Source: Erodium maritimum
Taxonomy: Eukaryota > Streptophyta > Magnoliopsida > Geraniales > Geraniaceae
Length of the DNA stretch: 64,000 bases
Direction of reading: 5' to 3'
NCBI GenBank assembly: GCA_963921825.1
Contig: OY997589.1
Coordinates: 3,534,001-3,598,000 of the forward strand
Shown: piece after piece, positions 2,583 to 42,879 of the stretch
How the letters are laid out: each line of letters starts with the position of its first letter
How positions within the stretch are numbered: position 1 is the first letter of the stretch
The notes under the pieces: model-generated
Databases searched by the model: none
Told to the model about the DNA's origin: nothing
The model's input: the letters and a program-made list of their open reading frames with translations, nothing else
Program-made: the position numbers and the translations under genes

Positions 2583-3065
2583 GGGTAATTCCACTTCAGT
2601 ATCTTAAATCTTTCCTATTTCATTTAGTTAGAAAACCCTAAATCTTTTTTGTGTCACTTCAGTATCCTAAATTTTTATTAATTTATTTAGAGTATCTTAA
2701 ATCTTTTTTGTATCATTTCAATACACTAAACTTTTATTAATTTCATTTTAGTACCCACTGTTAACTATCCATCTAAAACATGTGAAATGACCATAATACT
2801 CTTAACTAATAACTAAATTTAAGATAAAATTAACGGTAAGTATTAAAATAAAATTAATGAAAAATTAAGATATTGAGGTGTCAATTCTTTTTTAGAATAC
2901 TCTAAATAAATTAATAAAAATTTAAGGGATTGAAGTGACAATTATTTTTAAAAAACTCTAAATAAATTAATAAAAATTTAAAATATTAAAATGACATAAA
3001 AATAATTTAGAGTACGGTGAATAAAATACGAAATTGAAAGATTTAAAGTTCTATCATAATCCCCA
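2583..3065. repeat. AT-rich degenerate foldback (MITE-like)
   Basis: The left arm, starting near 2586 (GGGTAATTCCACTTCAGTAT), pairs imperfectly with the reverse complement of the sequence ending near 3062. Inside, TTTATTAATTTATTTAGAG recurs directly and in inverted form. It lies just upstream of the NECAP-like gene. Ends are approximate and no target duplication was recognised. Confidence 0.45.
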
Positions 3066-3178: not shown

Positions 3179-6100
3179 ATGGCGACGGAAGCGACGGCGT
3201 CGACCGATCGCGCAGATGTGAACGACGAGACCGACCCTGTCGAGCTTGTTCTCTTTCAAGTCCCGGAATGCTACGTTTATCTGGTACGTTTCGTCTCACA
3301 GAAATGTGGGTTTCGATCAATCTTTCTATCGATTTTGCTGGTGGGATCTTCGATTTACCTGTAAATTCCAGATCTTTCTCATCTGGGTTCCTCTGTTTCT
3401 GCATTTTAATGGCTGTTTTGGTTAATTTTTGGTACCTGGCCCTTGAAAATAAGAGGCATTGGCCTATACAGGAGAGAGTTTCAGCTGCATTGTTGAGGCT
3501 TAATTGGATAGTTTCAAGGGAAAATGTCGATTCCTAGCCCAGTCGAAAAAGTCATTTGCACATCCTAGGGCTCCACCTTTTGTGACAGATCCTAAACTAA
3601 AGGTGGTATTTTGTTACAAAAAAGTAACATAAAAGTGGTATTTTTTTTTACAAGGAACACAACTCTTTTCATAAATATTTTACACGTGGTTGTTACTTTT
3701 TGTAAATTTGTACCACTTTTTTGTTAGGATTTGTCGCAAAAGGTGGAGCATGGTTAGAATGTGCAAATGACATTTTCGTTTGGGCTAGGAATAGACGTTA
3801 TCCCTAGTTTCAATTTAGGATAAATTTGAATGAGCCTTGGGATTAGTTTTGCTCATAGGTAATTGATGATAGTTTTATATTGAAATTCACGGTGTGGAGT
3901 ATAAATTTGTGTAATTTTTTGGGTAACTTTATGAACACACCTTTGATCCTAAATACACAAGGTAAAGGTGGGGGGTTATTAGTAACACGCTGTGGATTTC
4001 GTTTATTTTGTTCCAAAAAAGCCACTAATAAATGAGAAAGGTGACAATTTTTCCTGATGAAACAATCACCTATTGAGTGTGATTCCGTGGGGTTTTGATT
4101 GGCAATTCAAGGTAACAGTGTGTAAACGATGACCCCTCATCTTCAGGGGTGTTTTTGAAAATCGAAGGTCGGTTTTCTCTAACTTGTTTTATGCGTAGAA
4201 ATGAAATGATGTGATATTGGTGGTCTGCTTATATAAGGGTTAATTGCTACAAACTACATCATGTATTGTCCAAGGGCGTAAAACTACATTATGTATTGTC
4301 CATGTCCCTAATTTTAACGGAATATTTAAATTTTTGTAAGTAAACGACTGTGGTCAAAGATAGTTTAGTCTAAAAACGTGGACAATGCGTAATGTAGTTT
4401 CTAGCAATTAACCCTTTATATAATAATGCACACCAAAACTGAGTTGCTTCAATATGATTCTCGGGGTTAAAACATCATACCAGAGTTGGATTGCTGAAGT
4501 GTGCTATGTGGATTGCTAAATACATCATGATGTTTTATTGTAATTTTGTAAATGAGCAAATATTGGTTACTGAGCACTTCCCTGATCTGCTGTATGGAAG
4601 GTTTTGAATCTATTATGATGTATAAGCTCACTTAGGTTGTATTTTTGCAGATACCCCCAAGGAAAAGTGCAGCTTCTTACAGGTTTATTTAAGGGATAAT
4701 TGCAAAAAAGTACCCTGAGGTATTCACTTTTTGCAACTTGTAACCCTATTCTTTGATAACGGCAAAAAAGTGTCATGAACTTGTCTTTTTGTTGCATTTT
4801 GTTTAATTTGTTTCGAAATGACAATGTTATACTTGGACATTTAAATTTTAAAATAACAATTAAAGAACAAAAAATTCAAATTTTCATATCCTTAGATTTC
4901 TTACTCTGTATGGTACAAAGAGAGGAAATTTGGGGATGTGAAAATTAGGATTTTTTGGGTTTTATTTATTATTTTTAAATATAAATTGTAAGGGAGAAAT
5001 CGTCATTTTTATACAAATTGCAACAAAAAAAAAGGTTCAAGGTATTTTGTTGTGATTATAAAAGAAAAGGGCTACAAGTTGCAAAAAACTGAATAAGTGA
5101 GTGTACTTTTTTGCAATTATTCCTTTATTTAACACTTGTATAGACACATTGGAGAATGATATTTATATTTGAAGTCCATTTCAGGGCCGATGAATGGAAT
5201 GTCAACAAGTGGGCTTGGGGCGGCACGTTGAAGGTCACTAGCAAAGAAGAAGAATGCATTATAAAACTCGAAGACAAGGACACAGGTATAACATTCGATC
5301 ATCAATCATCATTAGTTGTTAATATTCTTTTGGGATAATTGCAAAAAAGTATCATGAGGTAATCATTTTTTGCAACTTGAGGCCCTCTTCTTTGATAATT
5401 GCACACATGTGACTTGAACTTGTCTTTTTGCAATTTGTATGAAAATGATGATTTTACCCTTATTTATATTTAAAAAATATTAAGTAAAAAACAAAAAATC
5501 CGAAGTTTCATATCCTTAATTTTCTTCCTCTTTGTATGGTAGTAACAAAGAATAAGAAATCTAAGGGATAGGAAAATTTGGATTTTTTTGTTCTTTAATT
5601 ATTATTTTAGAAAGGTAATTTTCCAAGGGAAAAATCATCATGAAACAAATCTATACAAAGTGCAACAAAAAGACAAGGTCAAGGCACTTTATTTTGCAAT
5701 TATCAAAGAAGGCCATAAATTGCAAAAAGTGAATACTCAGGGTACTTTTGTGCAGTTATCCCAATTCTTTTATCTAACATTATTTGGGAGGACATCATTA
5801 GGTGAATTATACGCTCATGCATTTTTAAGAAAAGGAGAGCCACATCCCTTGGAGGCCGTAGTTGACAGCAGCAGGTTGACTCTTTTCTCTAACAGTCAAT
5901 CCAAAACTATGGATGCTTAAAAAAATCAGACTTTTTTTGCGAGAAATGACGAAAATGCCCCTTACCATTGTCTAAGAAAATTCCTAGTATTTTTAATAGT
6001 TTTTTCTTTTAAGGAGTCTCTTTACATCTACTCAACCGTTTTTTTACATTTTATCAAAATGTTTTGGGTAATTATAGTCGTTGTTGATATCAGGGCCAAG

Positions 6101-8205
6101 TGCATTTTCTGGCGAAAAAGAATTATGTGATGTTTTTTTAATATAGATATTATATCCCGGATGCGGAGGTTGTCTAAATAGAAATTCTTTCCTTTTCAGA
6201 TATTTCGCTCTCCGCATAGAAGAGAACGTAGGTGAGCTACTACATATACCCCATTATCATATATATACAAGGGATAATTGCAAAAAAGTACCCTGAGGTA
6301 TTCATGTTTTTCAACTTGTGGCCCTTTTCTTTGATTATTTGCAAAAAAGTACACTGAACTTGTCTTTTTTTTTGCAATTTGCATAAAAATGATGATTCTA
6401 CACTTACAATTGATATTTAAAAAATAATAAGTAAAAAACAAAAAATCCTAATTTTCGTCCTCTTTCTACCGTACAAAGTTTAAGAAATTTAAGGGATATG
6501 AAATTTGGATTCTTTTTCCTTCGATTTTTATTTTTAAAATCTAAACTTTCAAGGATAAAATCGTTATATTGAAACAAATTTATTCAAAGTGCAACAAAAA
6601 GACAAGTTCAAGGCATATTTTTGCAATTATCAAATAAGAGGGGTACTTTTTTGCAATTATCCCTATATACAAATGGTTCCTTTATCATGTCATTTGTAGT
6701 CTTATACTCCACATTCTGCAGATGGCCGTACACGGCATGCTTTCATTGGCTTGGGATTTCGAGAAAGAACCGAAGCATATGACTTTCAAGCAGCACTGCA
6801 AGATCACATGCAGTATATATATTCAAGGGATAAATGCAAAAAAAAAAAAAATCCTTGGGTATTCATTTTTTGCAAGTTGTATCCCTCTTCTTTGATAATT
6901 GCACAAAAGTGCCTTGAACTTACCTTTTTGTAGAAGTTTGTGTAAACTTGTTTCAAAATGATGATTTTACCCTTGATATTTTAAATTTAAATGATTATTA
7001 GTAAAAAACAAAAAAAATCCAGAATTTTCACCTCTTAACTTTCGCTCTTTAAATGTATAAAGGGGAAGAAAATTAAGTGTAATTAAACTTCTTGATTCTT
7101 TGTTTTTACTTCTTATTTTTGAAAGGGAAAAATCGTAATTTTGAAACAAATTCGCACAAACTGCAACCAAAAGGTAAGTTCAGGGTACTTTTTTGCAACT
7201 ATCAAAGAAGAGGGTTACGACTTACAATATAAAATGAGTACCTCTGAGTACTTTTTTTGCAATTATTCTTACATGCTATTTGCTTGTTTGTTTAGTTTTA
7301 AGGTTAATCTTCTTATACATTGCTTCAATGGAACTTAAATCCTGAAAGTCATATATACATTTCGTATTTTGTGAAGGTACCTGGAGAAAAAGAAAACTGC
7401 AGAGAAGATGGAGGAGCAGTACCAGAACACTTCATCAGTTGATTACAGTATAAAAAAAGGCGAGAAACTTGTACTCAATCTTAAGAATGTAAGACCACTC
7501 ACTTCAATGATTGCTCGGTTTTGTGAAGTCATGTCAAGATAGGATCTTGAATTCTATGTGGGATAATTGCAAAAAGTACCCTTAGTTATTCATTTTGTGC
7601 AAGTTGTAGCCGTCTTCTTCGGTAATTGCGCAAAAGTGCTTTGAACTTACCTTTTTGTTGCACATTGTGTAAATTTGTTTTAAAATGGCAATTTTACCCT
7701 TGATATTTTAAATTTAAAATATAATAAGTAAAAAAAATCCAGAATTTTCATCTGTCTTAATTTTCTTGCTAATGAGTGTACATAGAGGGGTTACCTATTA
7801 TTTCTTAAAGGGTAAAATCGTCATTTTAAAACATATTCACACAAAATGCAAGAAAAAAGGTAAGTTCATGATAAATTTTTTTTGCAACTATCAAATAAGA
7901 TGGTTTACAACTTGCAAAAAATGAATACCTCATGGTACTTTTTTGCAATTATCCCTTCTAACGTTGTACACAATCTTGTTGGTCAGGTGAGAACCGACGT
8001 TGCTGTGAAGTGTAAGTTTTTTCAGGAGATGCACGATCAACCAGTGAGCGATGGGAACGAGCCTGTGATTAGCATCAAACCTCCGCCACCTCCCCTCTCA
8101 CCTGTAGTTTCTCCTACAGCTTCACCCTCTGAATCCAAGCCAACAAAGCAAAGCATGGACCGTGTAGCTGATGATGATTTCGGTGATTTTCAGGGAGCTT
8201 TGTGA
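3179..8205 (+). CDS. NECAP: NECAP-like protein (adaptin-ear-binding coat-associated, DUF1681)
   Basis: Coding exons: 3179-3283, 4651-4682, 5185-5285, 5802-5874, 6200-6231, 6722-6812, 7377-7488 and 7987-8205. All introns are GT-AG, and the total is 765 nt, giving 254 aa. NECAPs are cytosolic endocytic accessory proteins that bind clathrin adaptors through an N-terminal PH-like domain. The protein starts MATEATASTDRADVND and then reads VELVLFQVPECYVYL, ADEWNVNKWAW, FIGLGFRERTEAYDFQAAL and SVDYSIKKGEKLVLNLKN. These are hallmarks of the plant family, from residue 23 to about 185. The tail has ISIKPPPPP and ends in DDDFGDFQGAL, an acidic phenylalanine motif of the sort used for adaptor-ear binding (inferred). 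Every exon junction keeps frame. It is convergent with the PHAX-like gene. Introns 2, 3, 5, 6 and 7 each hold a large MITE. Confidence 0.93.
3532..3792. repeat. Foldback element in NECAP-like intron 1
   Basis: Left arm CCTAGCCCAGTCGAAAAAGT and the following ATTTGCACAT are mirrored at the right by ATGTGCAAATGACATTTTCG followed by TTTGGGCTAGG. The inner parts also pair (GCTCCACCTTTT with AAAGGTGGAGC). The element is about 260 bp. It belongs to a different family from the GGGATAATTGC elements, and no convincing target duplication was found. Confidence 0.75.
3855..4185. repeat. Degenerate repeat with CCCCTCA/GTAACA motifs, NECAP-like intron 1
   Basis: Fragments such as GAGAAAGGTGACA and GATGACCCCTCATCTTCAGG recur in the foldback at 12918-13190 and in TBL intron 3 near 19650-19740. 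The three look like diverged members of one family. Ends are approximate. Confidence 0.4.
4237..4414. repeat. Short foldback MITE, 178 bp, with 9-bp target duplication
   Basis: It starts GGGTTAATTGCTACAAACTA and ends in TAGTTTCTAGCAATTAACCC, its near-exact reverse complement. Flanks CTTATATAA (4228-4236) and TTTATATAA (4415-4423) form a 9-bp target duplication with one mismatch, as expected for the Mutator superfamily. It lies in intron 1 of the NECAP-like gene. Confidence 0.85.
4693..5123. repeat. GGGATAATTGC foldback MITE in NECAP-like intron 2
   Basis: A 431-bp near-palindrome. The left arm begins GGGATAATTGCAAAAAAGTA and the right arm ends in TTTTTTGCAATTATTCC. A perfect 9-bp target duplication TTTATTTAA flanks it (4684-4692 and 5124-5132). 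The left copy touches the splice donor of exon 2 at 4683, so the element begins only 10 nt into the intron. Confidence 0.9.
5332..5762. repeat. GGGATAATTGC foldback MITE in NECAP-like intron 3
   Basis: Same family and same 431-bp length as the intron 2 copy. The arms mirror each other, for example CTTCTTTGATAATTGCA with TGCAATTATCAAAGAAG. Flanking 9-mers TATTCTTTT (5323-5331) and AATTCTTTT (5763-5771) match at eight of nine positions. Confidence 0.88.
6271..6663. repeat. GGGATAATTGC foldback MITE in NECAP-like intron 5
   Basis: Same family, 393 bp. A perfect 9-bp target duplication TATATACAA lies at 6262-6270 and 6664-6672. Arms begin GGGATAATTGC and end GCAATTATCCC. Confidence 0.9.
6827..7270. 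repeat. GGGATAATTGC foldback MITE in NECAP-like intron 6
   Basis: Same family, about 444 bp, with an expanded A-run near the left end (6838-6850). It begins about 14 nt after the exon 6 donor at 6813. The target duplication is no longer clear. Confidence 0.82.
7560..7955. repeat. GGGATAATTGC foldback MITE in NECAP-like intron 7
   Basis: Same family, 396 bp, running from GGGATAATTGCAAAAAGTAC to TTTTTTGCAATTATCCC. Flanks ATTCTATGT and TTCTAACGT resemble each other only partly. Confidence 0.85.
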
Positions 8206-8467
8206 AATTGGTATGCAAACTCGTGTCTGTGCCCGAATGTTGGTTTTGGGTTTGTGATGTCATGGATTCGATTGCTTGTTACAGATTTGATTTGTTGGGT
8301 AGTTTAAAGATTTACTTGTCTGGTGAATATATGTTGCAGAGAGAACTAGTTCAGAGAGTGAACCATTTCAGGAATTTTATTTCACCTTCTTTTTGAGATA
8401 CACTTTGACAATTGAAAATGGTTTGTTTGATGAACAGCAATTATATGTGTCCATGTCATTAAATTTG

Positions 8468-8580
8468 GGGTAAAATTATCATTTTGAAACAAATTTATAC
8501 GGATTGTAATTATCAAAAGAAAAGTTCCACGAGTTGCAAAAAGTGAATACCTTGAGGCACTTCTTTATGCAGTGATCCCT
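8468..8580. repeat. Single arm of a GGGATAATTGC MITE, 3' of the NECAP-like gene
   Basis: Only the right arm of the family is present (AAAATTATCATTTTGAAACA through AAAAAGTGAATACC to GTGATCCCTA). This is a half element. It lies between the two convergent genes and may fall within their 3' UTRs. Confidence 0.65.
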
Positions 8581-8909
8581 AGTTTAGACAATAAATGACA
8601 AAAACACCCTCACTAATCATCAAGAATGTGCCACTTTACAGTAAGTTTAACCTAGTTCCCCAAATCGTTATAGGGGTAGTTTTATCATTATTCCAAAAAT
8701 AGAGCAAAGTGAATTTTAGAGGTTGATGAAGTGACAAAACACTTGCATTTAACAAATAAGAATCCACAAGTATTGTTTTCTTCAGGAAAAGCCTTCTCGG
8801 ACTCAAAACCCAAAATGATACTATCTAAGACCAACTCAACAGCCTCGAAACCATGATTAAATCTGTAACCAAAGCAAAAATTCTCATTCAATCTTCCCAC
8901 AGCACTCCT

Positions 8910-11900
8910 CTACATTATAGATGTGTCGTCAGGACCTTCTTCTACCAAGTCAGCATATGAAACAGGAACTCTTATTCGATCATGAACAGGCCCTCGTTTA
9001 GCTTCTTCATCATTGGACCGCTCATTCTGAGTCTGTATCAGAGCCTTAACCTCAGAACCATCAGATACACTAGCCACTCTCTCTTCAGTAGCTAATTCAG
9101 AACTTTCTTTCTTTTCCACAGGTACTTGCCTAACATTTTGGGGCCTGAATTGCTTCTGCAGTTTAGCCAATAGATAACGATCAGAATCTAGTTTCAAATA
9201 TCAAGGAAGAATGATAAGGTTTTGATACAAGAGTTACAGATGAGATGGTCAGTTATAGACATACTTCAAGCTTGAACTAAAGACTTGTATTTTAAATACA
9301 AGTATTTAGAGGCTCCCATGGATGTATGATCGTGAAAACTCAGAGTCATAAGGCGCTTAATATTGTTTAGGGATAATTGTGAAAGTTGACCGTGTGGTTT
9401 ACGCTTTTTGCAAGTTGCTATTGTCTTCTAAAAACAGTTGAAACAGTGAACAAATTTTACTTGCACTGTGAATGACACGGTTAAAATTAAAGGGAAAAGT
9501 AAACATCTTTTACATAATTCAAGGGCAAATAATTTATTTGCAACAGAGAACATATATTTTTTTATCTTTCACATTAAAGGATTTATTTTTGTAAATTTTG
9601 GAAGATATGTTTAGATTTTTTTTAATTCAAGGGCAAATTCGGTATTTTATAAAAAGAAAAGAAGGGGAAGTCACGTTACCCCAAATTTATCCATTCTTGT
9701 TAAACATAACTGACAATGCAACAAAAAAAGAAATACCAAATTGCAAAAAAGGTTATCTAGAGGGTCGGTTTTTGCAATTATAGTAAATAAGAGGGCTAGT
9801 TACAAACCTCAAACTCCCTTGCCTTTTTCGTGATCTCCTTGAAGACTTTTGGATCTCGTGCTTTGATGATGTTCCATAATATGCCACCACCATTGCGATT
9901 GCGTCTGCCATCGGCGGTCATCTGACCTCCACATTCCTGAATAGCATTCACCTGCAAATGAACATTTCATGATAGTTATCAATCTCCAATTCTCTTCATT
10001 GGAAGCTCAATCGGTTTAGTCAACAGTCTTTATAGATTCAAGGGATAATTGTCAAAACATGCACTTATGTTTCGTCCACAAACGAAATAGTGCACAATGT
10101 TTTGTCCACGTCGTCTGGCTACCCTTATGAATCGTCCACGCACTTCTGTTAGAAAAGTGTAACAGCAGAACCTGAATTGACAATTTTGCCCTTTTGGTTT
10201 GAAATTCAAAAATAAGAATTTCGTCCAAAAAAATGAGTGGCTGAGGATTGTTAGGGCAATTTCGTCCAAAAAAAATTTCAGACACAAGCACATGATAGCA
10301 CGTGAGGCTACAGATTCGAATATTCTGTTATTTTTACGGACAGAAGTGCGTGGACGATTCATAAGGGTAGCCAGACGACGTGGACAAAACATTGTGCACT
10401 ATTTCGTTTGTGGACGAAACACAAGTGCATGTTTTGACAATTATCCCTAGATTCAATCAGTTACATGATATGCATACTTAAGTTCTAGCAACTCGGATGA
10501 GTTACATGCAAATATTTATTTCGCAACATTATTACTCAATCAATAAGCATATATTTCTTCATAATCTAGAATGCATAATTATCTTATGGGATAACTGCAA
10601 GAACGTACCCTGAGGTATTCATTTTTTGCAACTCGTAGCCATCTTCTTTGATAACTGCAAAAAGTACCTTGAACTTGTCTTTTTGTTGCATTTTGTATAA
10701 AAAATAACAAGTAAAAACAAAAAATCCAAATTTTATATCCCTTAATTTTAAGAGATGTAAATTTGGATTTTTTGTTCTTCAAATATTATTTTGTAAATTT
10801 TAATTTGCAAGGGTAAAATCATCATTTTGGAATAGAGTGCAACAAAAAAAGACGAGTTCATGGCATTTTATTTTTGCAATTATCAAAGAAGAGGGCTATA
10901 AATTGCAAAAAGTGTATTTTTTTGCGTTTATTCCTTAGCTTATTGGAAGGATGTTTTTTAAAAGAGTAGAGGAATTCACTAAAAACACTGGACGCGATGG
11001 GACGGGATGAGATCATCATAGTGGAGGGAGTGTTTCATCTTTGTAATACAACCGAAAAGAAAAAACCTACACAAAGACGAATGTGGTCATAGCCAATGTA
11101 TAGTGCGGAAGCAGTTGAATGGATTCTGTGACAAAATCTGCAAGGGTAGGGAAAAAATATCGGGCATCAGAACTTCAGAAGAAAATGCGGCTTTATACAG
11201 TTTGGATAAGTATAGTATGTGCTTTGTTTGTCCAAAATCAAGTGCAGTCTCACCTTTACTTGCAGGAACAAAATGAACGGTACCCTTTTCACTATGACTT
11301 ATCAATCTTAAAGGAGATTGCTAAAAGCGGCCGGGGGTCAAAATGTAAGGTCGCCTTTGCAAGAAGAGAGGAATAGAATGGAAAATATTTAAAGGAAGGG
11401 AAAGGAAGAATTGTTTACGATAAATGTGTAATGGAACTAAAAAAAGGATTGTACTGAAAGCACGATCTGATCCTAGCCGCACACATTCAAGAAAACCAAA
11501 GGAATAAAAAAGGGATAGTTGCAAAAAAGTAATCTGAGGTATCCGTTTTGTGCAACTCGTAGCCCTCTTCTTTGATAATTGAAAAAGAGTGCCTCTATAA
11601 CTTGTCTTTTTGTTGCACTTTGTATAAATTTGTCTCAAAATGACGATTTTACCCATAGAAATAATAATTAAAGAACAAAAAAATCCATATTTTCACATCC
11701 CTTGAATTGTTTACTCTTTGTATGATACAAAGAGAGAGAATAAAAAGGATATGAAAATTAGGATTTTTTGTTTTTATTTATTCATAATTTTTTGCAATTA
11801 CCAAAGGAAATGACTAAAAATTGCAAAAAATGAATACCTCAGGGTGATTTTTTGCAATAATCCTTCTAAAAATTGAAATGAACTATAAAAAAGAAGATTG

Positions 11901-12818
11901 TGGCATGAACAATCAAAGATAAACTTAGAAAAATCATATACAATACAAATTATTTAGGTGATTGTGAACATTTATCTACAATATTGGTTTGTTTAATAGT
12001 TGATGAAAGCAATTCTACATTAGAAGGAAAAAGTCCACTACCTCATTGATAAGATCGGTTAGAGCAGAAATACCCAGACAACCAACTGCAGTATATACCA
12101 TATATGATTTCTTCTCTCTCAATTGCCTACATGCATTTTGTACAAACCTGCAACTCACGAAAACTGAGAATCATTTTTTAGGGATAATTGCAGGAACTTG
12201 AGAATCATTTTATCTACGGATAATTGCAAAAACTTGCAGTGAACTATGTGTGTTTTGCAAATACTATCGGTGAACTATTTTTTCTATTTGCAATTGCAAC
12301 TGACATCAACTATTTTCTGTTTGCAAATCTACTAATGGATTTTCAAACAGAAAACAGTTGGGGGATGTCATTTCATTTGCAAAAAAATATATATAGTTCA
12401 CCGATAGTATTTGCAAAATGTGCATAGTTCACGGCAAATTTTTGCAATTACCCCTTTGATCTATAATGCAATTTCCTGGTCAATAAGGAAAAGATAAACC
12501 ACAAAGTTTCCTACTTGAGAAGAGTAAATACCTATCTATATTCGTGACATTAGGCCCTGTACCACTCTTCCTTCTCTTATTCTTCTTCTTCTTCCCTCCA
12601 CGCCTCCGGTTTTTGCTTTGAGAGTCCTGATTAACTATATTTACATCTTGATTCTGGACTTTATCTTCAGAATCTTGATTGGTTGTATTAAGGTCTTTGC
12701 TTCTGTTTTCACCGGCATCGGTTTTTTCCACAAACTCTCCTTCCTCTACATCGAGCATTTCAACATCATCTAAACCGTCATCTGAATAGATAGCTTCCAA
12801 TATGTTATCTCCTTCCAT
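8910..12818 (-). CDS. PHAX: PHAX-like protein (phosphorylated adaptor for RNA export domain)
   Basis: Coding exons on the minus strand: 12818-12532, 12147-12042, 9951-9808 and 9155-8910. The total is 783 nt, giving 260 aa, with GT-AG introns and consistent phases. In animals PHAX links capped snRNA to the export machinery; the plant protein keeps the RNA-binding domain. The N-terminus is acidic (DDVEMLDVEEGEFVEK), followed by a basic stretch RRRGGKKKKNKRRKSG (about residues 75-90) that is probably a nuclear localisation signal. The conserved RNA-binding region spans residues 97-180, with VYTAVGCLGISALTDLINE and CGGQMTADGRRNRNGGGILW. The tail ends VEEGPDDTSIM. An in-frame ATG further upstream (12857) lies beyond a splice acceptor near 12830, so 12818 is preferred. 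A 5' UTR exon near 13700-13810 with a 0.9-kb intron is inferred. Confidence 0.92.
9370..9782. repeat. Diverged GGGATAATTG foldback MITE in PHAX-like intron 3
   Basis: It starts GGGATAATTGTGAAAGTTGA and ends GTTTTTGCAATTATA. The arms pair around TTGCAAGTTGCTA and related blocks but are more diverged than in the NECAP-like introns. Flanking 9-mers do not match well. Confidence 0.65.
10042..10447. repeat. Second-family foldback MITE, long near-perfect hairpin
   Basis: A 406-bp element with arms of more than 110 bp that are almost perfectly complementary. Left arm blocks CGTCCACAAACGAAATAGTG and GTCCACGTCGTCTGGCTACC are mirrored by GGTAGCCAGACGACGTGGAC and CACTATTTCGTTTGTGGACG. Ends are GGGATAATTG...CAATTATCCC. 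A perfect 9-bp target duplication TAGATTCAA lies at 10033-10041 and 10448-10456. The interior is unrelated to the other MITEs although the ends are the same. Confidence 0.92.
10588..10934. repeat. GGGATAACTGC foldback MITE in PHAX-like intron 2
   Basis: A 347-bp copy of the main family, with arms mirrored as in the NECAP-like introns. Flanks TTATCTTAT (10579-10587) and TTAGCTTAT (10935-10943) agree at eight of nine positions. Confidence 0.85.
11512..11863. repeat. GGGATAGTTGC foldback MITE in PHAX-like intron 2
   Basis: About 352 bp, main family. The left arm is complete to the GACGATTTTACCC core. The right arm is shortened but keeps ATTACCAAAGGAAATGAC and the final TTTTTTGCAATAATCC. Confidence 0.8.
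12181..12454. repeat. Third-family foldback MITE in PHAX-like intron 1
   Basis: Left arm blocks GTGAACTATGTGTGTTTTGC and AATACTATCGGTGAACTAT are mirrored by ATAGTTCACCGATAGTATTT and the GTGCATAGTTCAC block. The outer ends are again GGGATAATTGC/GGATAATTGC and GCAATTACCCC. The left end is duplicated (12181 and 12218) around the repeated phrase GAGAATCATTTT. A diverged fragment of the same family begins at 13421. Confidence 0.75.
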
Positions 12819-12917
12819 GGAAGCACGCCTGCAATAGCTAAGAGTCAATAGCGACATAGAGTGATGACAAAAGCATGACTACAAAAATACTATCGAATAA
12901 CATTATTTACACCTCAT

Positions 12918-13190
12918 CGACAACCTATGAGTTTCAGGAACCCCTATAAGTGAGGGGCTAAGTTACTGTCACCTTCCGTTATTCATCAAAAAGCCATGGA
13001 TTCACACTGAATAGATAGTGGTTTTATCAGGAACGCATTTTCACCTTTTCAGTGCGTTCCTGATCAAAAACCCACCTTTTCATTTTTTCATGAATAACAA
13101 AAGGTGACAGTGTTACTCATAACCCCTCACATGTACAATCCGTATTTGAGAATCAAAGGTGGGTGCGTTAGTGAAGTTACCCCTGATTAA
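12918..13190. repeat. Foldback repeat in PHAX-like 5' UTR intron
   Basis: GAGGGGCTAAGTTACTGTCA and CCGTTATTCAT on the left pair with ATGAATAACAAAAGGTGACA and GTTACTCATAACCCCTC on the right. Related fragments occur in NECAP-like intron 1 and TBL intron 3. Ends are approximate. Confidence 0.6.
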
Positions 13191-13835
13191 CACTCCAACA
13201 ACACACATGTGTCTGTATGTCATCTTAAATGGAGCTTCCATCTAAAATTGCCAAAACTACATTCGTTCGATACCATTCAATGCCAACATTAGAAAATTTC
13301 AACCAGCAAGTGCAAACTCAGCTGCCTTTTCAACAATTGAATACGATGAATCAAACATAACCCAACAATTCCTGGACATTAACAACATTCCAATATGACC
13401 TAGGATAACATAAATAATAGGGATTATTGCAAAAGCCTACAGTAAACTATATGAGTTCTGCGAAAAAAAATCATCCCTTTGTAATCACCCATTTTCACCA
13501 GTAACTTTTTAAACCTTTCATGGACATTAACAAGCAAAAACGAAATCAGACCCACCAACCTAAAATTAGAGATAGCACCAGAAACATATACCAATCCATA
13601 AACCTAAAATTAGACATATATATAAGCATTCAAATATGCTAAAATCAGAGCTACAGTTTGACTATGGAGACGAATTGAAGCAAACAAAATCATAAATGGA
13701 AACATACCCAAATCGGAGGATCGTAACCTGAAGGCGGAGGAGACGGCGGCGAGTGCTTGAAATCGGCGGCAGCGGACGGTTCAGTTGAGAGGGGGGAGGA
13801 CGTTTGTGAGAGATGGAGAGGTCAGGAACAAAGGT

Positions 13836-13841
13836 TTATAG
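13836..13841 (-). promoter_or_regulatory. TATA-box candidate of the PHAX-like gene
   Basis: TATAAA on the minus strand, about 30 bp upstream of a GC-richer stretch that could be the first, untranslated exon (about 13700-13810). A donor-like CTTCAG/GTTACG or GG/GTATGT lies near 13710-13735. The exon itself is inferred from base composition and from the acceptor near 12830. Confidence 0.45.
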
Positions 13842-14102
13842 TGAAGGGGTACATAAATTAGGATTTTTCATTTTAAATTCAAATATAATTGTAATTTGAA
13901 CATTATTGAGTAGAAAAAAAATAGTTTATAATTTTTATTACTAGTTAAAAATATTAAAAGGTGATGAAATAAGATTAATCATACTCAAGACTCTAGTTTT
14001 TTTATGCTTTTCAAAAAAAAAAAATATATTAGTTGTTAATTTTTTTTTAGTGTATATTAACTGTTATTTAAATTTCACAAGACGATTTAAACAATCAGAT
14101 AA

Positions 14103-14970
14103 GAGATCGTGAGCCGATCAAGATAGTGGGCTCACGTCGAACAGTCCTACCAATAATGACCAATCCACCGTTCTTACCGCATCTTCTTCGAGACTACTAC
14201 AAATAGAATGGAAAATCACGATCCTGCCCGAGAGTCACGACCGACGACGATGCTTTTGAGGCCCCGAGTGACATTGGATACCCGTCCATATCACTCATGG
14301 GAAGGGGACCAACTCATCCGCCGAAGCGAGGACAGAGTGAGCAAAGAAATGCGCAACCTTCAGAGCAGATATACACAAGGAACGAAGGGAGGAACCCTGG
14401 TGGTATCCTTCAGTTCCTTCCCCTTCAAGGACCACATAGCCCCCTCTCCCGGCCTGAAGACCGATGAACCTAAGTGGTACGTCTCATCCCCGAAAATGGA
14501 TGGATCCTAAACCCCCACTCAGGACACCATGGACCTACAAATACTTCGACGATAGATGGCACCGAATGGATAAAGACGAGGCACGACCAGTTGCCTCGCG
14601 GGTCACCATGAGTTGTTTAGGGGCATCTCGGGGTGTTACTAAGAAGCTACACCCCAGTCCCACTAAATCAGACATGCTCTGGTTCCCAGCCTCCTCCTTC
14701 CCTGGTATATTCTTTGGTTGTCTGATGCGACACACCAGTATTAATCAAGTCGAGACAGGAGAAGTTCAAAGGATCATCCGTACTACACACAGCTGGAATA
14801 GGGACCGACCCCTTACATCTTTTCTGGATCTATCCGAGATACTAGTTATAGGATCAGTGCTCTAGCCGTCACTAGAATTGTATCTCATCTTTTTGCATTT
14901 ATTTACAACATTGTACAATCTATGCGGGTTTTCCACTTCATATCAATAAAATATTTCCATTGTGCTTAAA
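14103..14970 (+). mobile_element. Processed retrocopy of an unknown transcript, 14-nt target duplication
   Basis: The 14-mer AAACAATCAGATAA occurs at 14089-14102 and again at 14971-14984, bracketing 868 bp. The insert ends in AATAAA (14945-14950), then about 17 nt, then a short A-run, which is the layout of a cleaved and polyadenylated RNA. A long target duplication with an A-tail points to LINE-mediated retroposition. The two overlapping open frames (14208-14510, 14464-14865) resemble no family I recognise. The body has LTR-like phrases (CTACAAATAG), so the parent RNA may have been a retrotransposon transcript. Confidence 0.7.
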
Positions 14971-14984
14971 AAACAATCAGATAA

Positions 14985-15544
14985 ATTTATTATTAAAATT
15001 ATATCCTTATATGATTCGTTGTGGAGTTAACAAAATTTAAACATACGACTTTCAAAATTAAAATGTAAAAATTAAATAGAAAATGTGTAAAAACGTTGAG
15101 TTAAAATTATACAATGCTTACCAAAATACTGAAACAAAATACAATAAAGTTCTTATCATTCTTAAAACTAAATAGAATACTAAGTTACCTAAGATTTAAA
15201 TCTTTTCTTAGTTAGAAAAGCAAAACTATACAAATTACTTCAAATCCTACATAATTTGAGTCCTATCACATGAATAACAAAGCTAATTTAATCCCAACCA
15301 TCCAAGAAAACAAAATAGACAAATATGTAGGACAGCTAAATAAATAATTAATAACAAAATAGGAAAATAAAACTAATGATCCAAAAAAGCCCACATTGAC
15401 CGACCTAAAGGACAAAAAGTAAATTTTCTCTACCATAATATCTAAACAAAAATAAAATAGAACACCTGATAAAGTTGGGACTCTTATTCTTTTAGAACAG
15501 AATGACAAAAATTATATATTTAGGAACAAGTAAAAAGTGCAAAA
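14985..15544. other. AT-rich spacer between PHAX-like gene and unknown gene
   Basis: No gene or repeat recognised. The 80-codon minus-strand open frame at 15266-15508 is hydrophobic low-complexity and looks like chance. The right part probably holds the promoter of the next gene. Confidence 0.5.
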
Positions 15545-16439
15545 ACTGAGAATTGCGTTTGTTGCATCGAGTTGGCTTCTGGGTTTTCACAGTCTCTCCC
15601 AAAACGTAAGCTTCTGTTACTGAGTTCCGCAAATTTTCAATTAAACCAATTTGCCTCTCTCTCCCAGTTCTGTGTGGTTTATCACTGCTGAAACCATTAA
15701 AAAAGGGTTCATGTTTGATTTCTGATCACTTTGCAAGGTTTATCAGTTGGGTATGAATTGATTTCAAGCTGCAATTTTTGTCTGTGGTTGAAATAGCTAT
15801 GTGGGTCTGTATTGTGATTGTTTTTGCTTCATCTGCAGCACAGAGAAAGCTTAAAGTTTTCGTTTTTATTTCTCCTTTTTCATGGTTATGTTGATTTCCT
15901 TGAGTTTGGTGGAGTTTGAGGACATGGGTTGGATTTTGTTTTTTTGACTAACTAGGTTATGTATCATGAATTGCTTTAAGGGTTTGGTTTTGAGTTGGGA
16001 TTTTTTGGAAATTGGATTGGACTGTGTTGTTTATGAAGTTGGAAGATTGATAATGTTCTTGGTGATTGTCTTAAGCTGAATAGCTTCTGTATTGCTTAAT
16101 TCTTAGGGGCACATGATAATGATCTCCCACTTTTCATGTATTTATGAAGAAGGATGGTTCTTATCTTCTTTTCGACTTTAGCTTAGTGAAAAGATTAAAA
16201 TTTGTAGATTCCAAAGAGTTTTATGAGTGCTTGTAGAAACTAGGGAAAACGTCATTCACAATCCCATGGACCATCTTAAGCAATGTGTCTTGGTTCCCTT
16301 TCTGTTCACATAGATTGAGTTTGGTAGAAACTTTGAGGGGTGATTGTGCCTGAACTGCAACTTCAGTTTGATCTTTTGGGTGTCATGTAAAGAAATTCAG
16401 AACAATCTAAAATAGAATTTGTAATTGTCGTATAAATCT

Positions 16440-16590
16440 CTGTATTGATTGTGGGTCTGGGGAGAGTCATCTATCTACAATCTTCCCTATACTTTTGTAG
16501 AGAGAATGTGTCTTAACTCAAACTCGTGACCTCCTCAAGGTCACAAAGGAGTGACCTTACTGTTGGCAAGGCTCATCATGCGCAGCAAAA
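16440..16590 (-). mobile_element. AU-type tRNA-derived SINE in a 5' UTR intron
   Basis: Read on the minus strand: GGTCACTCCTTTGTGACCTT, GAGGTCACGAGTTTGAGTTA, ACAAAAGTATAGGGAAG and CTCCCCAGACCC. This order matches the angiosperm AU SINE, including a degenerate Pol III B-box at GAGTTTGAGT. The A-box end is poorly preserved. The assignment is from memory of the consensus. Confidence 0.7.
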
Positions 16591-16816
16591 TGGTCTCTAA
16601 TTAGCATAGCCTCAAAGCATAAATGATAATTATAGATGATTATTGTCGAATTGCTGTCCCGATCATACTTTCCTTCCCGATAAAATGCTATATTTTGCAG
16701 CTTATGTGCAATTTATGTTTCTGGTATGTGCTTACTCCAAAGTTTCAAAATGTTTATAGGTAATTAGTAGCAGCATCATTATTATAACAAGAAAATAGTG
16801 AAAAGAATCTTATGAG

Positions 16817-18675
16817 ATGGATCTGAAAGGGGTAAGCTGGGTTAAACATATGTACAGAAGGTGTGAAACTTTGTTACTGGAGGCTGAAGATGACGTTTTT
16901 CAGGTACAAATTTTTTTGGCAGTTCAATTCCTTTAACCTCCAAAATTACGAAACAACATGTTTCAACTGGCTCATTAGTCTTGCCACTCTTGATCATTTG
17001 TTCTAATATCATATAGTGATAATTGCAAAAAAGTACCCTAAAGTATTCATTTTTTGCAACTTGTATCCCTCTTCTTTGATAATTATAAAATGTGCCCTGA
17101 AATTGTCTTTTTGTTGCACTTTGTATAACTTTGTTTTATAATGACTATTTACTTTGTAAAAATTCCAAATTTTAGTATCCCTTACATTTCTTACTCTGTG
17201 TACAGTACAAAGAGGAAGAAAGTCAAGGGATATAAAAATATGGATTTTTTGTTGTTACTTATTATTTTTAAAATATAAACTGTAAGGGTAGGATCGTTAT
17301 TTGTATACAAATTGCAACAAAAAGACAAGTTCAGGGTATTTTTTCATAATTAACTACAAGTTGTAAACAATGTATACATCAGGGTACTTTTTTGCAATTT
17401 GTTCAAATATCTTATATTTCGTTTTATTTTTGAACAGGATGTAGTTAATTATGTTGAGAACCAGGTTCAGGCAGTTGGGGATGGTGTTAAGAAGCTCTAT
17501 TCAGACGTCATCCAAGATCAGAATGTAGTTAGTTATGTTGAGAACCAGGTTCAAGCAGTTGGGGATGGTGTTAAGAAGCTCTATTCAGATGTCGTCCAAG
17601 ATCTGCTTACTCCAACTTCAGCACCCGAAGGCTCAGATGTGCCTGCAGAAACATATATTGATGCTTGTGCAAAGGATGTGCATATAAACGTTGATGCCGA
17701 GAGAGTAATCCCAAATCTTAATGCAATCAATGTGGAAGTTGAGAACCATGGACTAAACAGTGTCAACTCTTCAACTGCATCATCTTTAGCAGATTCAATC
17801 AACGGATCGCTGAAAGAATGTTCCGAAAGAGCATCAGAGATCTGTCCATGCCTACACGAAAGTCAGGAAGCATCATGTGGTAAAATGGCTGTAACTGTTT
17901 CAGGTTGTGATGGGGTTGAAGATGTAAGCAAGCGAGAGCCTGATGTTTCGGTTGATGACCCATCTTTTCCTAAGGGTATGTTCTTGCGATCCATTGATAA
18001 CAAAGTGATAAAGGTCACGTTTTCCCCGTGTAGCGAGGATGAAAGTGACAAAGACAAGATCGACGATAAGAATGTTATTGGACTGGACTTGAAAACTATT
18101 GAGCGGCCCGATCATTTCAAACTCGAGGAAAGTTGTGTTGTGGTGAATGGAGATGAACTACATTGTGTTTCTCTAAGCAAAGGCAGAGGCAAGAGCAAAA
18201 GCAGAGCATATAAGGCACATTCTTTTTTACCTACCTTTACTCAAAACAGTTTTCTTGGAAAAAATTACCCCTAGGTGTTTCCTTTTTGCAATTTGTAGCC
18301 CTTTTATTTGATAATTGCAAAAAAATGCCCTGAAATTGTCTTTTTGTTGCACTTTTTATACAATTTGCAACGAAAAAACAGTTCATAGTACTTTGTTGCA
18401 ATTATGAAAGAAGAGGGCTACAAGTTACAAAAAGTGGATACCTGGGTACTTTTTTGCTATTTCCCTTTTATATAATTGATTATTATTCATTGATACAGGA
18501 AAAGATTCGGGATGCTCTCTCTTTGAGATTGAAGTCTGCAAGGAAGGAAGAGTACAAGCAGCTTGCAGTACTACATGCAGACAATGACGGTTCTCTGAAG
18601 CCAGAAATTACAATGAAGAACACAAGAATTTTACCAACAAATGATATTGGTGAATCTGAATGGGAGTTTCTATAG
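16817..18675 (+). CDS. Conserved plant protein of unknown function
   Basis: Coding exons: 16817-16903, 17438-18214 and 18499-18675 (1041 nt, 346 aa). An untranslated exon ending at 15605 (AAAAC/GTAAGC) is inferred. The protein begins MDLKGVSWVKHMYRRCETLL, then a 28-residue unit repeated twice in tandem (residues 30-85, core YVENQVQAVGDGVKKLYSDV). A long serine/acid-rich middle follows, then a basic GRGKSKSRAYK/EKIRDALSLR block, ending SEWEFL. This pattern belongs to a plant-only family I cannot name functionally. There are no membrane spans. Intron 2 begins with GC rather than GT, yet phase and protein continuity support it. An upstream ATG at 16812 overlaps the start. Introns 1 and 2 of the coding part each hold a MITE. 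Confidence 0.82.
17016..17407. repeat. GGGATAATTGC-family foldback MITE, first coding intron of the unknown gene
   Basis: Main-family arms (GATAATTGCAAAAAAGTACC to GGTACTTTTTTGCAATTT). Flanks TATCATATA (17007-17015) and TATCTTATA (17408-17416) agree at eight of nine positions. The element makes up about 390 of the 534 bp intron. Confidence 0.85.
18257..18470. repeat. Short GGGATAATTGC-family MITE in the GC-AG intron
   Basis: About 214 bp. It keeps both outer arms (GTAGCCCTTTTATTTGATAA mirrored by GAAAGAAGAGGGCTACAAG) and has lost the central part. It occupies most of the 284-bp intron 18215-18498. Confidence 0.8.
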
Positions 18676-30297: not shown

Positions 30298-30695
30298 ATA
30301 CTAAAAAGAAAAAACTCCAGGTACTAACTATCCCCGACTTGTACATCTCAAGAACTACGGTTGACTTTTTTGTCGATCAGAAACGCACTCCTGACTTAAT
30401 GTAATTACACAAACTAACATTTTCCGTTAGTGATGACGATGAAAGTTAGGAAAAACTCCAAGAACTAACTGCAATATGACTATTGAACTCAAAAACTAAC
30501 CGTATACTTGTTAGTTTTTTGTAGCTTTTACTAACGTTTTCCGTCATCTCTAACGGAAAATGTTAGTTCATAACGGAAAAAGTTACTTTTTAGTAAATAC
30601 CTAAGTCAACCGTGCGTTTCTGATCGGAAAAAAAGTCAACCGTAGTTCTTGAGCGGTACAACTCGACGATAGTTAGTTCCTGGTTTTACCCCTAT
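30298..30695. repeat. Foldback element upstream of the protease genes
   Basis: Left blocks AAGAACTACGGTTGACTTTT and GATCAGAAACGCA pair with TGCGTTTCTGATC and AAAAGTCAACCGTAGTTCTT. The inner block ACTAACATTTTCCGTTAG also pairs with its mirror. It ends about 215 bp before the TATA box of the first protease gene. A diverged piece occurs in that gene's intron (32217-32480). Confidence 0.82.
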
Positions 30696-37015: not shown

Positions 37016-38835
37016 GAGGAGAAATCTAATAGAAACTTCTCTTATCCTAAAAACTGTGTGAACCAATCCTAGCCACACACCCTTTAGATCCAACATTCAC
37101 CATAATGACACATCATCACCCCAATTCAACTAAAACTCACGCCACTTTCTTACTTTTTCACACAAGCAAGGACATAATTGTAATAGCATGGTGCCATGTG
37201 GACACGTGTCCATTTTTTTGTTCAACAATTCGTTAATTTAATCATTCCTGCTTCGTTTCAACTCCGATTAGCTTCAAATTTGCGCCAATATTTTTCTTTT
37301 TCCAAGGGCTTTAAATCAAGATCAGTCATGAATATATTTTGAAGCACGAAAATAAAAATTTATATTGGGGTGATAAAAACAATGTTAAGTGTTGACAAAT
37401 CTTCACTAATAATTTTTTTATATCGCGGTATCAAACTAGTGCTAAATAGTGTTTAGTGTTGATAAAACTAGTGCTTAGTATTCATAAAAAATATGTGATG
37501 ATGTGATAAAAATCATGTTCGATTTTGGAAAATGAGGTGATAAAACTAATGTTTAGTGTTGATAAACCCAGTGTATATTGTTGATAAACCCAGTGTATAG
37601 TGTTGATAAAAATTACTCAGACTTAACTTTTTTTTAAAATCAGCCCCGAAGTAAGGGTAATAACCTAGAGTTTAGTGTTGATAAAAAAAACATGTGATGG
37701 GATGATAAAAACACATGTAATTTAATGATAAACATAGTGTTTAGTGTTGATAAAACTAGTGCTTAGTGTTCATAAAAAACATGTGATGATGTGATAAAAA
37801 TCATGTTCGATTTTGGAAAATGAGGTGATAAAACTAGTGTTCAGTGTTGATAAATCCAATGTATAGTGTTGATAAACCCAATGTATAATGTTGATAAAAA
37901 TTACCCAGACTTAACTTTAAAAAAAAAATCAACCCCGAAATAAGGGTGATGACCTAGAGTTTAGTGTTGATAAAAAAAACATGTGATGGGATGATAAAAA
38001 CACATGTAATTTAATGATAAACATAGTGTTTAGTGTTGATAAAATTAGTGCTTAGTGTTCATAAAAAACATGTGATGATGTGATAAAAATCATGTTCGAT
38101 TTTGAAAAATGAGGTGATAAAACTAGTGTTCAATGTTGATAAACCCAGTGTATAGTGTTCATAAACCCAGTGTATAGTGTTGATAAAAATTACCAAGACT
38201 TAACTTTTAAAAAAAATCATCCCCGAAATAAGGGTGATAACCTAGAGTTTAGTGTTGATAAAAAAAACATGTGATGGGATGATAAAAACACATGTAATTT
38301 AATGATAAACATAGTGTTTAGTGTTGATAAAACTAGTGCTTAATGTTCATAAAAAACATGTGATGATGTGATAAAAATCATGTTCGATTTTGGAAAATGA
38401 AGTGATAAATCCAGTGTATAGTGTTGATAAATCCAGTGTATAGTGTTGATAAACCCAGTGTATAGTGTTGATAAAAATTACCAGACTTAACTTTTTTTTA
38501 AAAAAATCAATCCCAAAATTAATTTTTTTCGTGCTTCAAAATATATTCATGACTGATCTTGATAGAAAGCCCTTGAAAAAAAAAACTAATGGCGCAAGTT
38601 TGAAGCCAATCGGAGATCAAACGAAGCGGGAAAAATTAAATTAGTGAATTGGTAAAAAAAAATATATGATGGTTTTACTAAAAAACCCTTACCCCTTACT
38701 AAAAAGTGATGTTTTTTTTGCAGTCAACAAGTCAACAAATCTATTGCATCTCATCCATCCATTCTTAAAATGAATGGCTTGGATTGGTTCACACAATTTT
38801 TACGTTAAGGAGTGGTTTCTATTTGATTTTTCCTC
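37016..38835. mobile_element. Mutator-like (MULE-type) non-autonomous element with long inverted repeats
   Basis: The 10-mer CTATGGAGAA occurs at 37006-37015 and 38836-38845. The left end begins GAGGAGAAATCTAATAGAAA; the right end, reversed, begins GAGGAAAAATCAAATAGAAA. The inverted repeats continue inwards for about 330 bp with gaps; shared blocks include TGTGTGAACCAATCC and GATCAGTCATGAATATATTT. A 9-10 bp duplication plus long terminal repeats fits the Mutator superfamily. There is no transposase; the centre is a tandem array. Confidence 0.88.
37440..38500. repeat. 288-bp tandem array (about 3.7 units) inside the MULE-type element
   Basis: GTGCTTAGTGTTCATAAA or close variants recur near 37471, 37760, 38048 and 38335, giving periods of about 287-289 bp. 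Each unit also contains 21-22 bp sub-repeats of the form CCAGTGTATAGTGTTGATAAA. Confidence 0.85.
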
Positions 38836-41237: not shown

Positions 41238-42879
41238 TGAATTTTTTAGCCCAATCCTATTTTGTTAGAACATACCCACTATTTTTATGCGTAGCTGCAG
41301 CATACCCACTATTTTTATCCGGTTAAAAAATTATTATCTGGTTAAAACATGCATGGACAATGAGAATATGCATATCTACGCAAACCCACTATTTTTAGGC
41401 CAATCCTATTTCGTTAGGTCAATGAAGAATAGATTTTTCGGTTTTTCACCAATTTCGGCATACTATAGTATGTCAGAACCGGCAAAAAAGTGAAAAAAAT
41501 TATTATCGGGTTAAAACATGCATGGAGAATGATAATATGCATATCTACGCATACCCACTATATTTTTAGGAAAAACCGAGTTCGTTAGCTCAATGAAAAA
41601 TAGATTTTTCGGTTTTTCACCGATTTCGGCATACTATAGTATGTCAGAACCGGCAAAAAAAGTGAAAAAAACTATTATCCGGTTAAAACATGCATGGAGA
41701 ATGAGAATATGCATATCTACGCATACCCAATATTTTCAGGCCAATCCGAGTTTGTTAGCTCAATGAAAACAAAGATTTTTCGGTTTCCACCGATTTCAGC
41801 ATACTATAGTATGTCAGAACCGGAAAAAAAGTGAAAAAAATTATTACCAGGTTAAAACATGCATGGAAAATGAGAATATGCATATCTACTTATATCCACT
41901 ATTTTTATGCCAATCCGAGTTCGTTAGGTCAATGAAAATGAGATTTATCGGTTTTTCACCGTTTTCGGCATACTATAGTATGTCAGAACCGGAAAAAAAG
42001 TGAAAAAAAATTATTATCGGGTTAAAACATGCATGGAGAATGAGAATATGCATATCTACGGATACCCACTATTTTTAGGCCAATCCGAGTTCGTTAACTC
42101 CATGACAATTAGATTTTTCGGTTTTTCACCGTTTTCGGCATACTATATTATGTCAGAACCGGCAAAAAAGTGAAAAAAAAATTATTATCGGGTTAAAACA
42201 TGCATGGAGAATGAGAATATGCATAGATACGCATACCCACTATTTTTAGGCCAATCCGAGTTTGTTAGGTCAATGAAAATGAGATTTTTTGGTTTATCAC
42301 CGTTTACGGCATACAATAGTATGTCAGAACCGGAAAAAAAGTGAAAAAAATTATTATCGGGTTAAACATTCATGGAGAATGAGAATATGCATATCTACGC
42401 ATACCCACTATTTTTTTGTCATTCCGAGTTCGTTAGGTCAATGAAAAATAGATTTTTCGGTTTTTCACCGATTTCGACATACTATAATATGTCAGAACCG
42501 GAAAAAAGTAAAAAAAAATATATTATCGGGTTAAAACATTGATGGATAATGAGAATATGCATATCTACGCATACCCACTATTTTTAGGCCAATCCTAGTT
42601 CGTTAGGTCAATGAAAAATAGATTTTTCGGGTTTTCACCGTTTTCGGCATACTTATAGTATGTCAGAACCGGAAAAAAAGTGACAAAAATTCTTATCGGG
42701 TTAAAACATGCATGGAGAATGAGAATATGCATATCTACGCATACTCTGTACTTTTAGGCCAATACGAGTTCGTTAGCTAAATGAAAAATAGATTTTTCGG
42801 TTTCCACCGATTTCGGCATACTATAGTATGTCAGAACTGGCAAAATAGTGAAAAAAATTATTATTGGGTTAAAACATGC

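Follow-up and report, generated by a model that had tools for sequence, protein, structure and literature searches.

Palindromic Mutator-type foldback elements crowd the introns of neighbouring genes in Erodium maritimum

We analysed a window of 64 kb from the Erodium maritimum genome (contig C2, 3534001–3598000, within a 763-Mb assembly of 40 contigs, with C1–C8 measuring 69–159 Mb) in which three neighbouring genes carry a swarm of foldback elements. Fifteen elements or pieces were found at 3518–18464, ten of them, including a 121-bp fragment (B6), belonging to a single family, B (Table 1). They are very probably non-autonomous Mutator-type miniature inverted-repeat transposable elements (MITEs), mobilised in trans and inserted into introns repeatedly and independently, with copies in exons having been lost. 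This is a known kind of element; its crowding in the introns of neighbouring genes is striking.

Foldback elements and their 9-bp duplications

The whole window was scanned for inverted repeats (at least 18 of 24 bases and 3 of the first 4) with a flush 9-bp target-site duplication (TSD) of at least 8/9, a search that is blind to the end sequence. It returned six elements, every one starting with GGG and all located at 3.5–10.5 kb. One of these, G1, was new; an earlier note on this DNA had reported at least a dozen foldbacks at 4.2–18.5 kb and missed it. We find 14 elements or pieces in 4237–18470. The three perfect 9-bp duplications described in that note, those of B1, B3 and D1, are exact, and the imperfect ones (8/9) claimed for several others belong to A1, B2, B7 and E1. 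B7 and E1 lie below the inverted-repeat threshold of the scan. A convincing duplication is absent for six elements, and B4 has an intermediate score. Exact flush repeats of other lengths did not reveal further elements: the 11 found at 7 bp were one-base-shifted registers of the six scan elements (six), pairs inside B1 and B9 (two) and satellite pairs (three), and those found at 8 bp (three), 10 bp (two) and 12 bp (one) consisted of one pair internal to E1 and of satellite pairs.

The earlier note had called for a check of the duplication beyond the window, and it is indeed found there. Of 39 other places with a match to B1, the 20 best-scoring ones were examined with a B profile built from nine window copies; being the best, they are less diverged than average. 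Full-length B copies number 32 at these places, and for 30 of them both ends could be recognised. Of these 30, 16 are flanked by a 9-bp duplication that is perfect or has a single mismatch, compared with 0, 0, 1 and 1 at 7, 8, 10 and 11 bp. When flanks were swapped between B copies as a control, 8/9 was reached in 4 of 870 combinations. For the other families, duplications of at least 8/9 were found for 2/3 (A), 2/2 (G), 2/2 (D), 1/1 (E) and 0/1 (C) of the full-length hits in 317,574 bases searched, window copies included. The second copies of A (locus L012, 921–1103) and G (locus L026, 1917–2161) both have perfect 9/9 duplications. The 24 duplications available (16 from the 20 loci and eight, spanning five families, from the window) give an AT-rich target consensus, T-W-N-W-W-W-Y-W-A. 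A D element in locus L019 (465–870) has inserted into a B copy and is flanked by a perfect duplication, TTATAAAAA (TSD 9/9); excision of D in silico restores a B copy that can be aligned to the consensus over its entire length. D is younger here than the B copy it entered.

Long terminal inverted repeats (TIRs) starting with G characterise the superfamily of Mutator and Mutator-like elements (MULEs). The B consensus is self-complementary from end to end and has GGG ends, and the 9-bp duplications are those of this superfamily.

The B consensus, derived from 40 copies, is a 438-bp palindrome throughout (90% self-complementary in 449 columns). No stop-free run in it exceeds 66 amino acids, in agreement with the non-autonomous, palindromic nature proposed earlier. 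B is a MITE family by the usual traits: it is short, has no coding capacity, reaches a high copy number and is intronic where its location could be classed. A 49-bp module occurs twice in each arm, at a spacing of about 60 bp. Tandem modules were also recognised in the arms of other families: for B, G1, A1 and D1 none of 100 shuffles scored as high, and for E1 one did. The test was not passed by element C1 (5/100 shuffles) or by a remnant of GGGATTATTGC at 13420 (38/100).

Several families share GGG-type ends. The tips of A1, C1, D1 and E1 are (G/C)GG(A/T)TAATTG-like and resemble B at the tip only, the rest of the sequence being different; those of G1 are GGGAAAATG and GGGATAACG. The arms of D1, counted together with flanking bases, pair over 125 nt with 94% complementarity. 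Element C1 is the weakest member of the set, because it is missing from the listing of self-complementary pairs and its hairpin is no better than those of shuffled sequences (z −1.0). For the other 13 of 14 window elements tested, hairpins are predicted in the sense RNA with z scores from −8.9 to −29.1 (12 shuffles each), and for the B consensus folding is predicted at −297 kcal/mol. The suggestion that the pre-mRNAs contain long hairpins is thus borne out at the level of structure prediction.

A recent burst of one family is not supported. More than one family contributed to the swarm, and the copies of B are 82–94% identical to their consensus (6–18% away), with a pairwise median of 81.6% and a maximum of 89.2%. 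B has the appearance of an old family with star-like relationships, and it may go back to an ancient burst.

Self-complementary stretches, with ends judged by eye and no family given, also occur at 2604–3046, 12950–13130 and 30317–30683. Neither Rfam families nor tRNAs were detected when the window was scanned for them.

Table 1. Foldback elements and host genes, in window coordinates.
Feature	Position	Strand	Context	TSD	Remarks
G1	3518..3804	.	NECAP intron 1	TAGTTTCAA, 9/9	foldback; TIR 21/24
A1	4237..4414	.	NECAP intron 1	8/9	178-bp foldback; GGGTTAATTGCTA ends
B1	4693..5123	.	NECAP intron 2 (4683-5184)	TTTATTTAA, 9/9	near-palindrome
B2	5332..5762	.	NECAP intron 3	8/9	
B3	6271..6663	.	NECAP intron 5	TATATACAA, 9/9	
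B4	6827..7269	.	NECAP intron 6	only 6/9	full-length match to B profile
B5	7560..7955	.	NECAP intron 7	none left	full-length match; GGGATAATTGC at both ends
B6	8459..8579	.	3' of NECAP stop codon	none convincing	fragment; nhmmer E 5.6e-13
C1 (element)	9370..9782	.	PHAX intron 3	none	decayed GGGATAATTGTG element; 50-nt arms 72% complementary
D1	10042..10447	.	PHAX intron 2	TAGATTCAA, 9/9	foldback
B7	10588..10934	.	PHAX intron 2	8/9	
B8	11512..11864	.	PHAX intron 2	none clear	full-length match
E1	12217..12454	.	PHAX intron 1	8/9	238-bp foldback; 81% self-complementary over 236 bp
B9	17016..17401	.	gene 3, first coding intron	none convincing	nhmmer E 2.3e-95
B10	18256..18464	.	gene 3, second intron	none convincing	internally deleted; nhmmer E 6.3e-29 and 4e-24; 76% self-complementary
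NECAP gene	3179..8205	+			8 exons; spliced frame open, GT-AG introns; PF07933 (DUF1681) E 2.9e-51
NECAP exons	3179-3283, 4651-4682, 5185-5285, 5802-5874, 6200-6231, 6722-6812, 7377-7488, 7987-8205	+			
PHAX gene (RNA export adapter)	8914..12818	-			PF10258 E 2.4e-23
PHAX exons	12532-12818, 12042-12147, 9808-9951, 8914-9155	-			approximate; splice edges by eye
Gene 3 (unnamed)	16817..18672	+			open frames
Gene 3 exons	16817-16903, 17438-18210, 18499-18672	+			approximate; edges by eye

Chromosomal distribution and host introns

A 27-base B end has 170 exact matches and 3,486 with up to three mismatches genome-wide, and the reversed pattern, used as a control, has 0 and 0. Scaled by the 21 of 54 termini that fall within three mismatches among copies not selected for similarity to B1, this gives a rough estimate of about 4,500 copies, or about six per Mb, compared with ten in 14 kb of the window. 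The exact 23-base B end has no match in viral_contigs.

B is concentrated in distal regions. On contigs C1–C4, to which the counts of exact ends for distal bias and clustering refer, 76 of the 89 exact matches to the B end are found in the terminal 10 Mb of a contig (expected share 0.197). The best B1 matches agree, 36 of 39 being distal compared with 8.9 expected (one place on C9 was dropped). The family is also clustered: eight neighbouring pairs lie less than 5 kb apart, compared with 0.56 after jitter by up to 500 kb (maximum 5 in 5,000), one terminus having been dropped as the second end of the same element. The 184-kb region surrounding the window contains 25 B pieces, every one of them at 3491–3553 kb, and the next 105 kb or so to the right of this cluster, which include satellite, contain none.

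A 170-bp satellite, with a higher period of about 339 bp, fills 41325–55052 and 57009–59926 of the window and is adjoined by open reading frames (ORFs) with an RRM domain at 55496–56848 and 59968–61176. A 288-bp tandem repeat (3.7 copies, 22–23-bp subunits) is found at 37446–38519. At 158.6 Mb, contig C1 has about double the length of C2–C8, and it has mid-contig exact B ends at 36.5, 52.3, 62.0, 72.9, 73.9, 76.5 and 83.1 Mb; outside the terminal 10 Mb, C2 and C3 have one exact B end each and C4 has none. Since B marks chromosome ends on the other contigs, the B ends in the middle of contig C1 may have been left by two chromosomes fusing end to end.

Swarms also exist elsewhere. The flanks in the 20 fetched loci contain many more B pieces, and a 2.4-kb stretch of contig C1 (locus L041), chosen because two exact B ends lie 2.4 kb apart, contains four B copies, three of them full-length; two ORFs from this locus gave no Pfam match. 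An FtsZ gene (L010), an SPX-EXS gene (L027) and an ALMT gene (L026) each have two B copies between their exons. Once emptied of their element, 22 insertion sites have a median longest ORF of 63.5 amino acids, compared with 66.5 for noncoding sequence and 178 for exons. This fits insertion into noncoding sequence, intron and spacer not being told apart by the measure.

In the window, the first host gene, which we take to be NECAP from its PF07933 domain (Pfam label DUF1681), is followed by PHAX on the opposite strand and by a third gene without a Pfam match. None of the 15 elements overlaps any of the 15 coding exons of these genes, as had been noted before; some exon edges used for the comparison are approximate by 1–2 bp, and PHAX exon 1 may be up to 12 bp too long. 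Under uniform insertion this would occur with P = 0.014, and avoidance of exons at this single locus is therefore modestly supported. Two features of gene 3 were observed in passing. One exon has an in-frame 84-bp tandem duplication (17435–17603, 94% matches) encoding a 28-residue repeat, and the second intron (18211–18498), host to B10, appears to have a GC instead of a GT donor (AAG|GCACAT), as judged by eye from continuity of the frame alone.

NECAP introns 2, 3, 5, 6 and 7 contain one B copy each, and the two long introns contain none. B1 and B4 start 10 and 14 bp past the 5' splice sites of introns 2 and 6. With the element and one copy of the duplication removed, the introns are 62–112 bp long and GT-AG. 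A NECAP paralog at 11.04 Mb of contig C2 (locus L045) has counterparts of all eight exons, that of exon 8 being partial (66%), and no B match. For its introns 2, 3, 6 and 7, the alignment with the emptied NECAP intron outscores 200 of 200 shuffles each, and the alignment of intron 3 spans the target site of B2, which is empty in the paralog. Paralog intron 5 (966 bp) does not align to the emptied NECAP intron 5. Intron 4 of the paralog, which is on the minus strand, contains a different 303-bp foldback with GGGTTAATTTCC ends and the flanks TTGATTTCA and TTGGTTTTA (7/9); the paralog is thus free of B only, not of foldbacks generally.

Origin of the swarm

According to the explanation that we favour, a MULE transposase acting in trans would recognise the GGGATAATTGC end together with the repeated modules that follow it. 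The palindromic element would be moved as a unit and inserted by a 9-bp staggered cut into AT-rich TWNWWWYWA targets. Insertions would favour distal chromosome arms, and the introns of the same genes would be hit repeatedly, in separate events spread over a long time. Exon-breaking copies would be purged by selection, and those in introns would persist since splice sites are kept. The 9-bp duplication of B1, for example, leaves the donor of NECAP intron 2 intact. MULE domains are abundant in the genome, with 1,627 candidates, 150 of which were scored.

Several points weigh against this explanation. An autonomous partner was not found in the three MULE loci, out of the 150 scored, that were read; these have no terminal repeats with a 9-bp duplication and no B match. 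The 9-bp duplication scores below 8/9 for 14 of the 30 B copies. Avoidance of exons, taking the window locus alone, reaches only the P value given above, and 21 of 30 ORFs near B have no Pfam match, most of the 20 loci being unclassed as to intron or spacer. The jitter was made without gene-sized islands, and the clustering of B may partly be clustering of genes. Finally, the alignments to the paralog were judged against single-base shuffles and include conserved splice-site edges; that of intron 7 is the loosest, as the paralog sequence used overran the acceptor into exon 8.

A version of the favoured explanation without any targeting of introns is one of passive crowding, in which elements insert anywhere in open, gene-rich distal chromatin and survive only in introns and spacers. 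We give it a little better than an even chance, and our confidence in it overlaps with that in the explanation set out above. The strong distal bias, the AT-rich targets and the lack of B pieces in the roughly 105 kb that include the satellite all speak in its favour, and a B-free paralog with the same introns points to the neighbourhood rather than the gene. It accounts less well for the distribution within NECAP. In simulations of uniform insertion, five copies fell into five different introns at a rate of 0.0029 and left the long introns free at 0.0216; for both together the printed rate was 0.00000 in 200,000 simulations, the simulation having been chosen after the pattern was seen.

A further reading is that B is drawn to introns as such, for instance by co-transcriptional chromatin or R-loops in expressed, multi-intron distal genes, lengthening introns gene by gene with about one copy per short intron. 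We consider this improbable. If true, B would be an intron-filling transposon: introners create introns, and B would occupy those already there.

A single founder that multiplied regionally, by local hopping or tandem duplication, would also yield many copies within a few kb of one another. B4 and B5 are mutual nearest relatives among 45 copies (84%) and form a possible exception to the general pattern, which is one of no special kinship between neighbours. Within-locus pairs have a similarity of 0.790, compared with 0.808 between loci. Neighbours share 2.31 derived bases in excess, compared with 2.02 after permutation (P = 0.18). For six of eight window copies the nearest relative in the 45-copy sample is at another locus, and the readable target duplications differ from copy to copy. 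As copies lying side by side are no more closely related than copies far apart, the swarm consists mainly of many independent insertions, and we reject a local founder as very unlikely.

Two further candidates have almost no probability left. That the insertions created the introns, as introners do, might be thought from the single B element per short NECAP intron, and is refuted for introns 2, 3, 6 and 7 by the paralog, which shares the intron positions without B; moreover, the emptied introns are 62–112 bp long with GT-AG borders, and the splice sites are not at the element ends. Membership in another superfamily, such as hAT with its 8-bp duplications, is refuted by the 9-bp register (8 bp fits 0 of 30 copies) and by the GGG ends, in spite of a hAT transposase remnant within the first 1.5 kb of the window. 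This remnant (1–1518) is a broken gene in which the ORF at 919–1518 carries the dimerisation domain PF05699.

NECAP has a palindromic transposon in each of five short introns, and its paralog has the same introns without B; the pair forms a clean natural contrast. It could be used to probe effects of intronic hairpins on splicing, small RNAs and expression, and to probe whether a MULE selects introns or merely survives there.

Relation to known elements

No report on the B family came up in listings of open-licence papers, and the search aimed at the sequence itself, by the end motif GGGATAATTGC, returned no transposon paper by title. The comparisons below are by description.

In Arabidopsis, many inverted repeats near genes are described in a review as deriving from MuDR-type MITEs and as producing 24-nt siRNAs (PMC12595863). 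The consequence proposed for the hairpins of B would accordingly be a known effect of such elements, if the analogy holds. The FARE elements of Arabidopsis, now classed with the MULEs according to PMC4486113, have long palindromic repeats at both ends, a feature that B appears to share. Tm1, a Mutator/Foldback element of root-knot nematodes, is described as having composite modular terminal repeats, mostly 9-bp duplications and MITE-like members (PMC3169594), all of which recall B. It differs in its animal host, its other end motifs, the lack of a clear target consensus in that description and an encoded transposase.

The closest description is that of MuTAnT, Mutator-like foldback MITEs of Medicago truncatula that are 292 bp long and consist of four similar segments (PMC4486113). 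According to this source there are 218 copies flanked by 9-nt duplications, mostly in (TA)n microsatellite targets, and a putative autonomous element is known; MuTAnT copies are often near genes and, in transcribed regions, located only in introns or untranslated regions. B resembles MuTAnT in foldback layout, G-rich ends, 9-nt duplication and intron location. It differs in copy number, which is in the thousands, and in its targets, which are AT-rich with few short TA runs: a TA run of 8–9 nt lies within 30 nt of the end in 3 of 38 B copies (two of them B3 and B4), and runs of at least 12 nt in none, so that insertion into (TA)n as described for MuTAnT is not a property of B.

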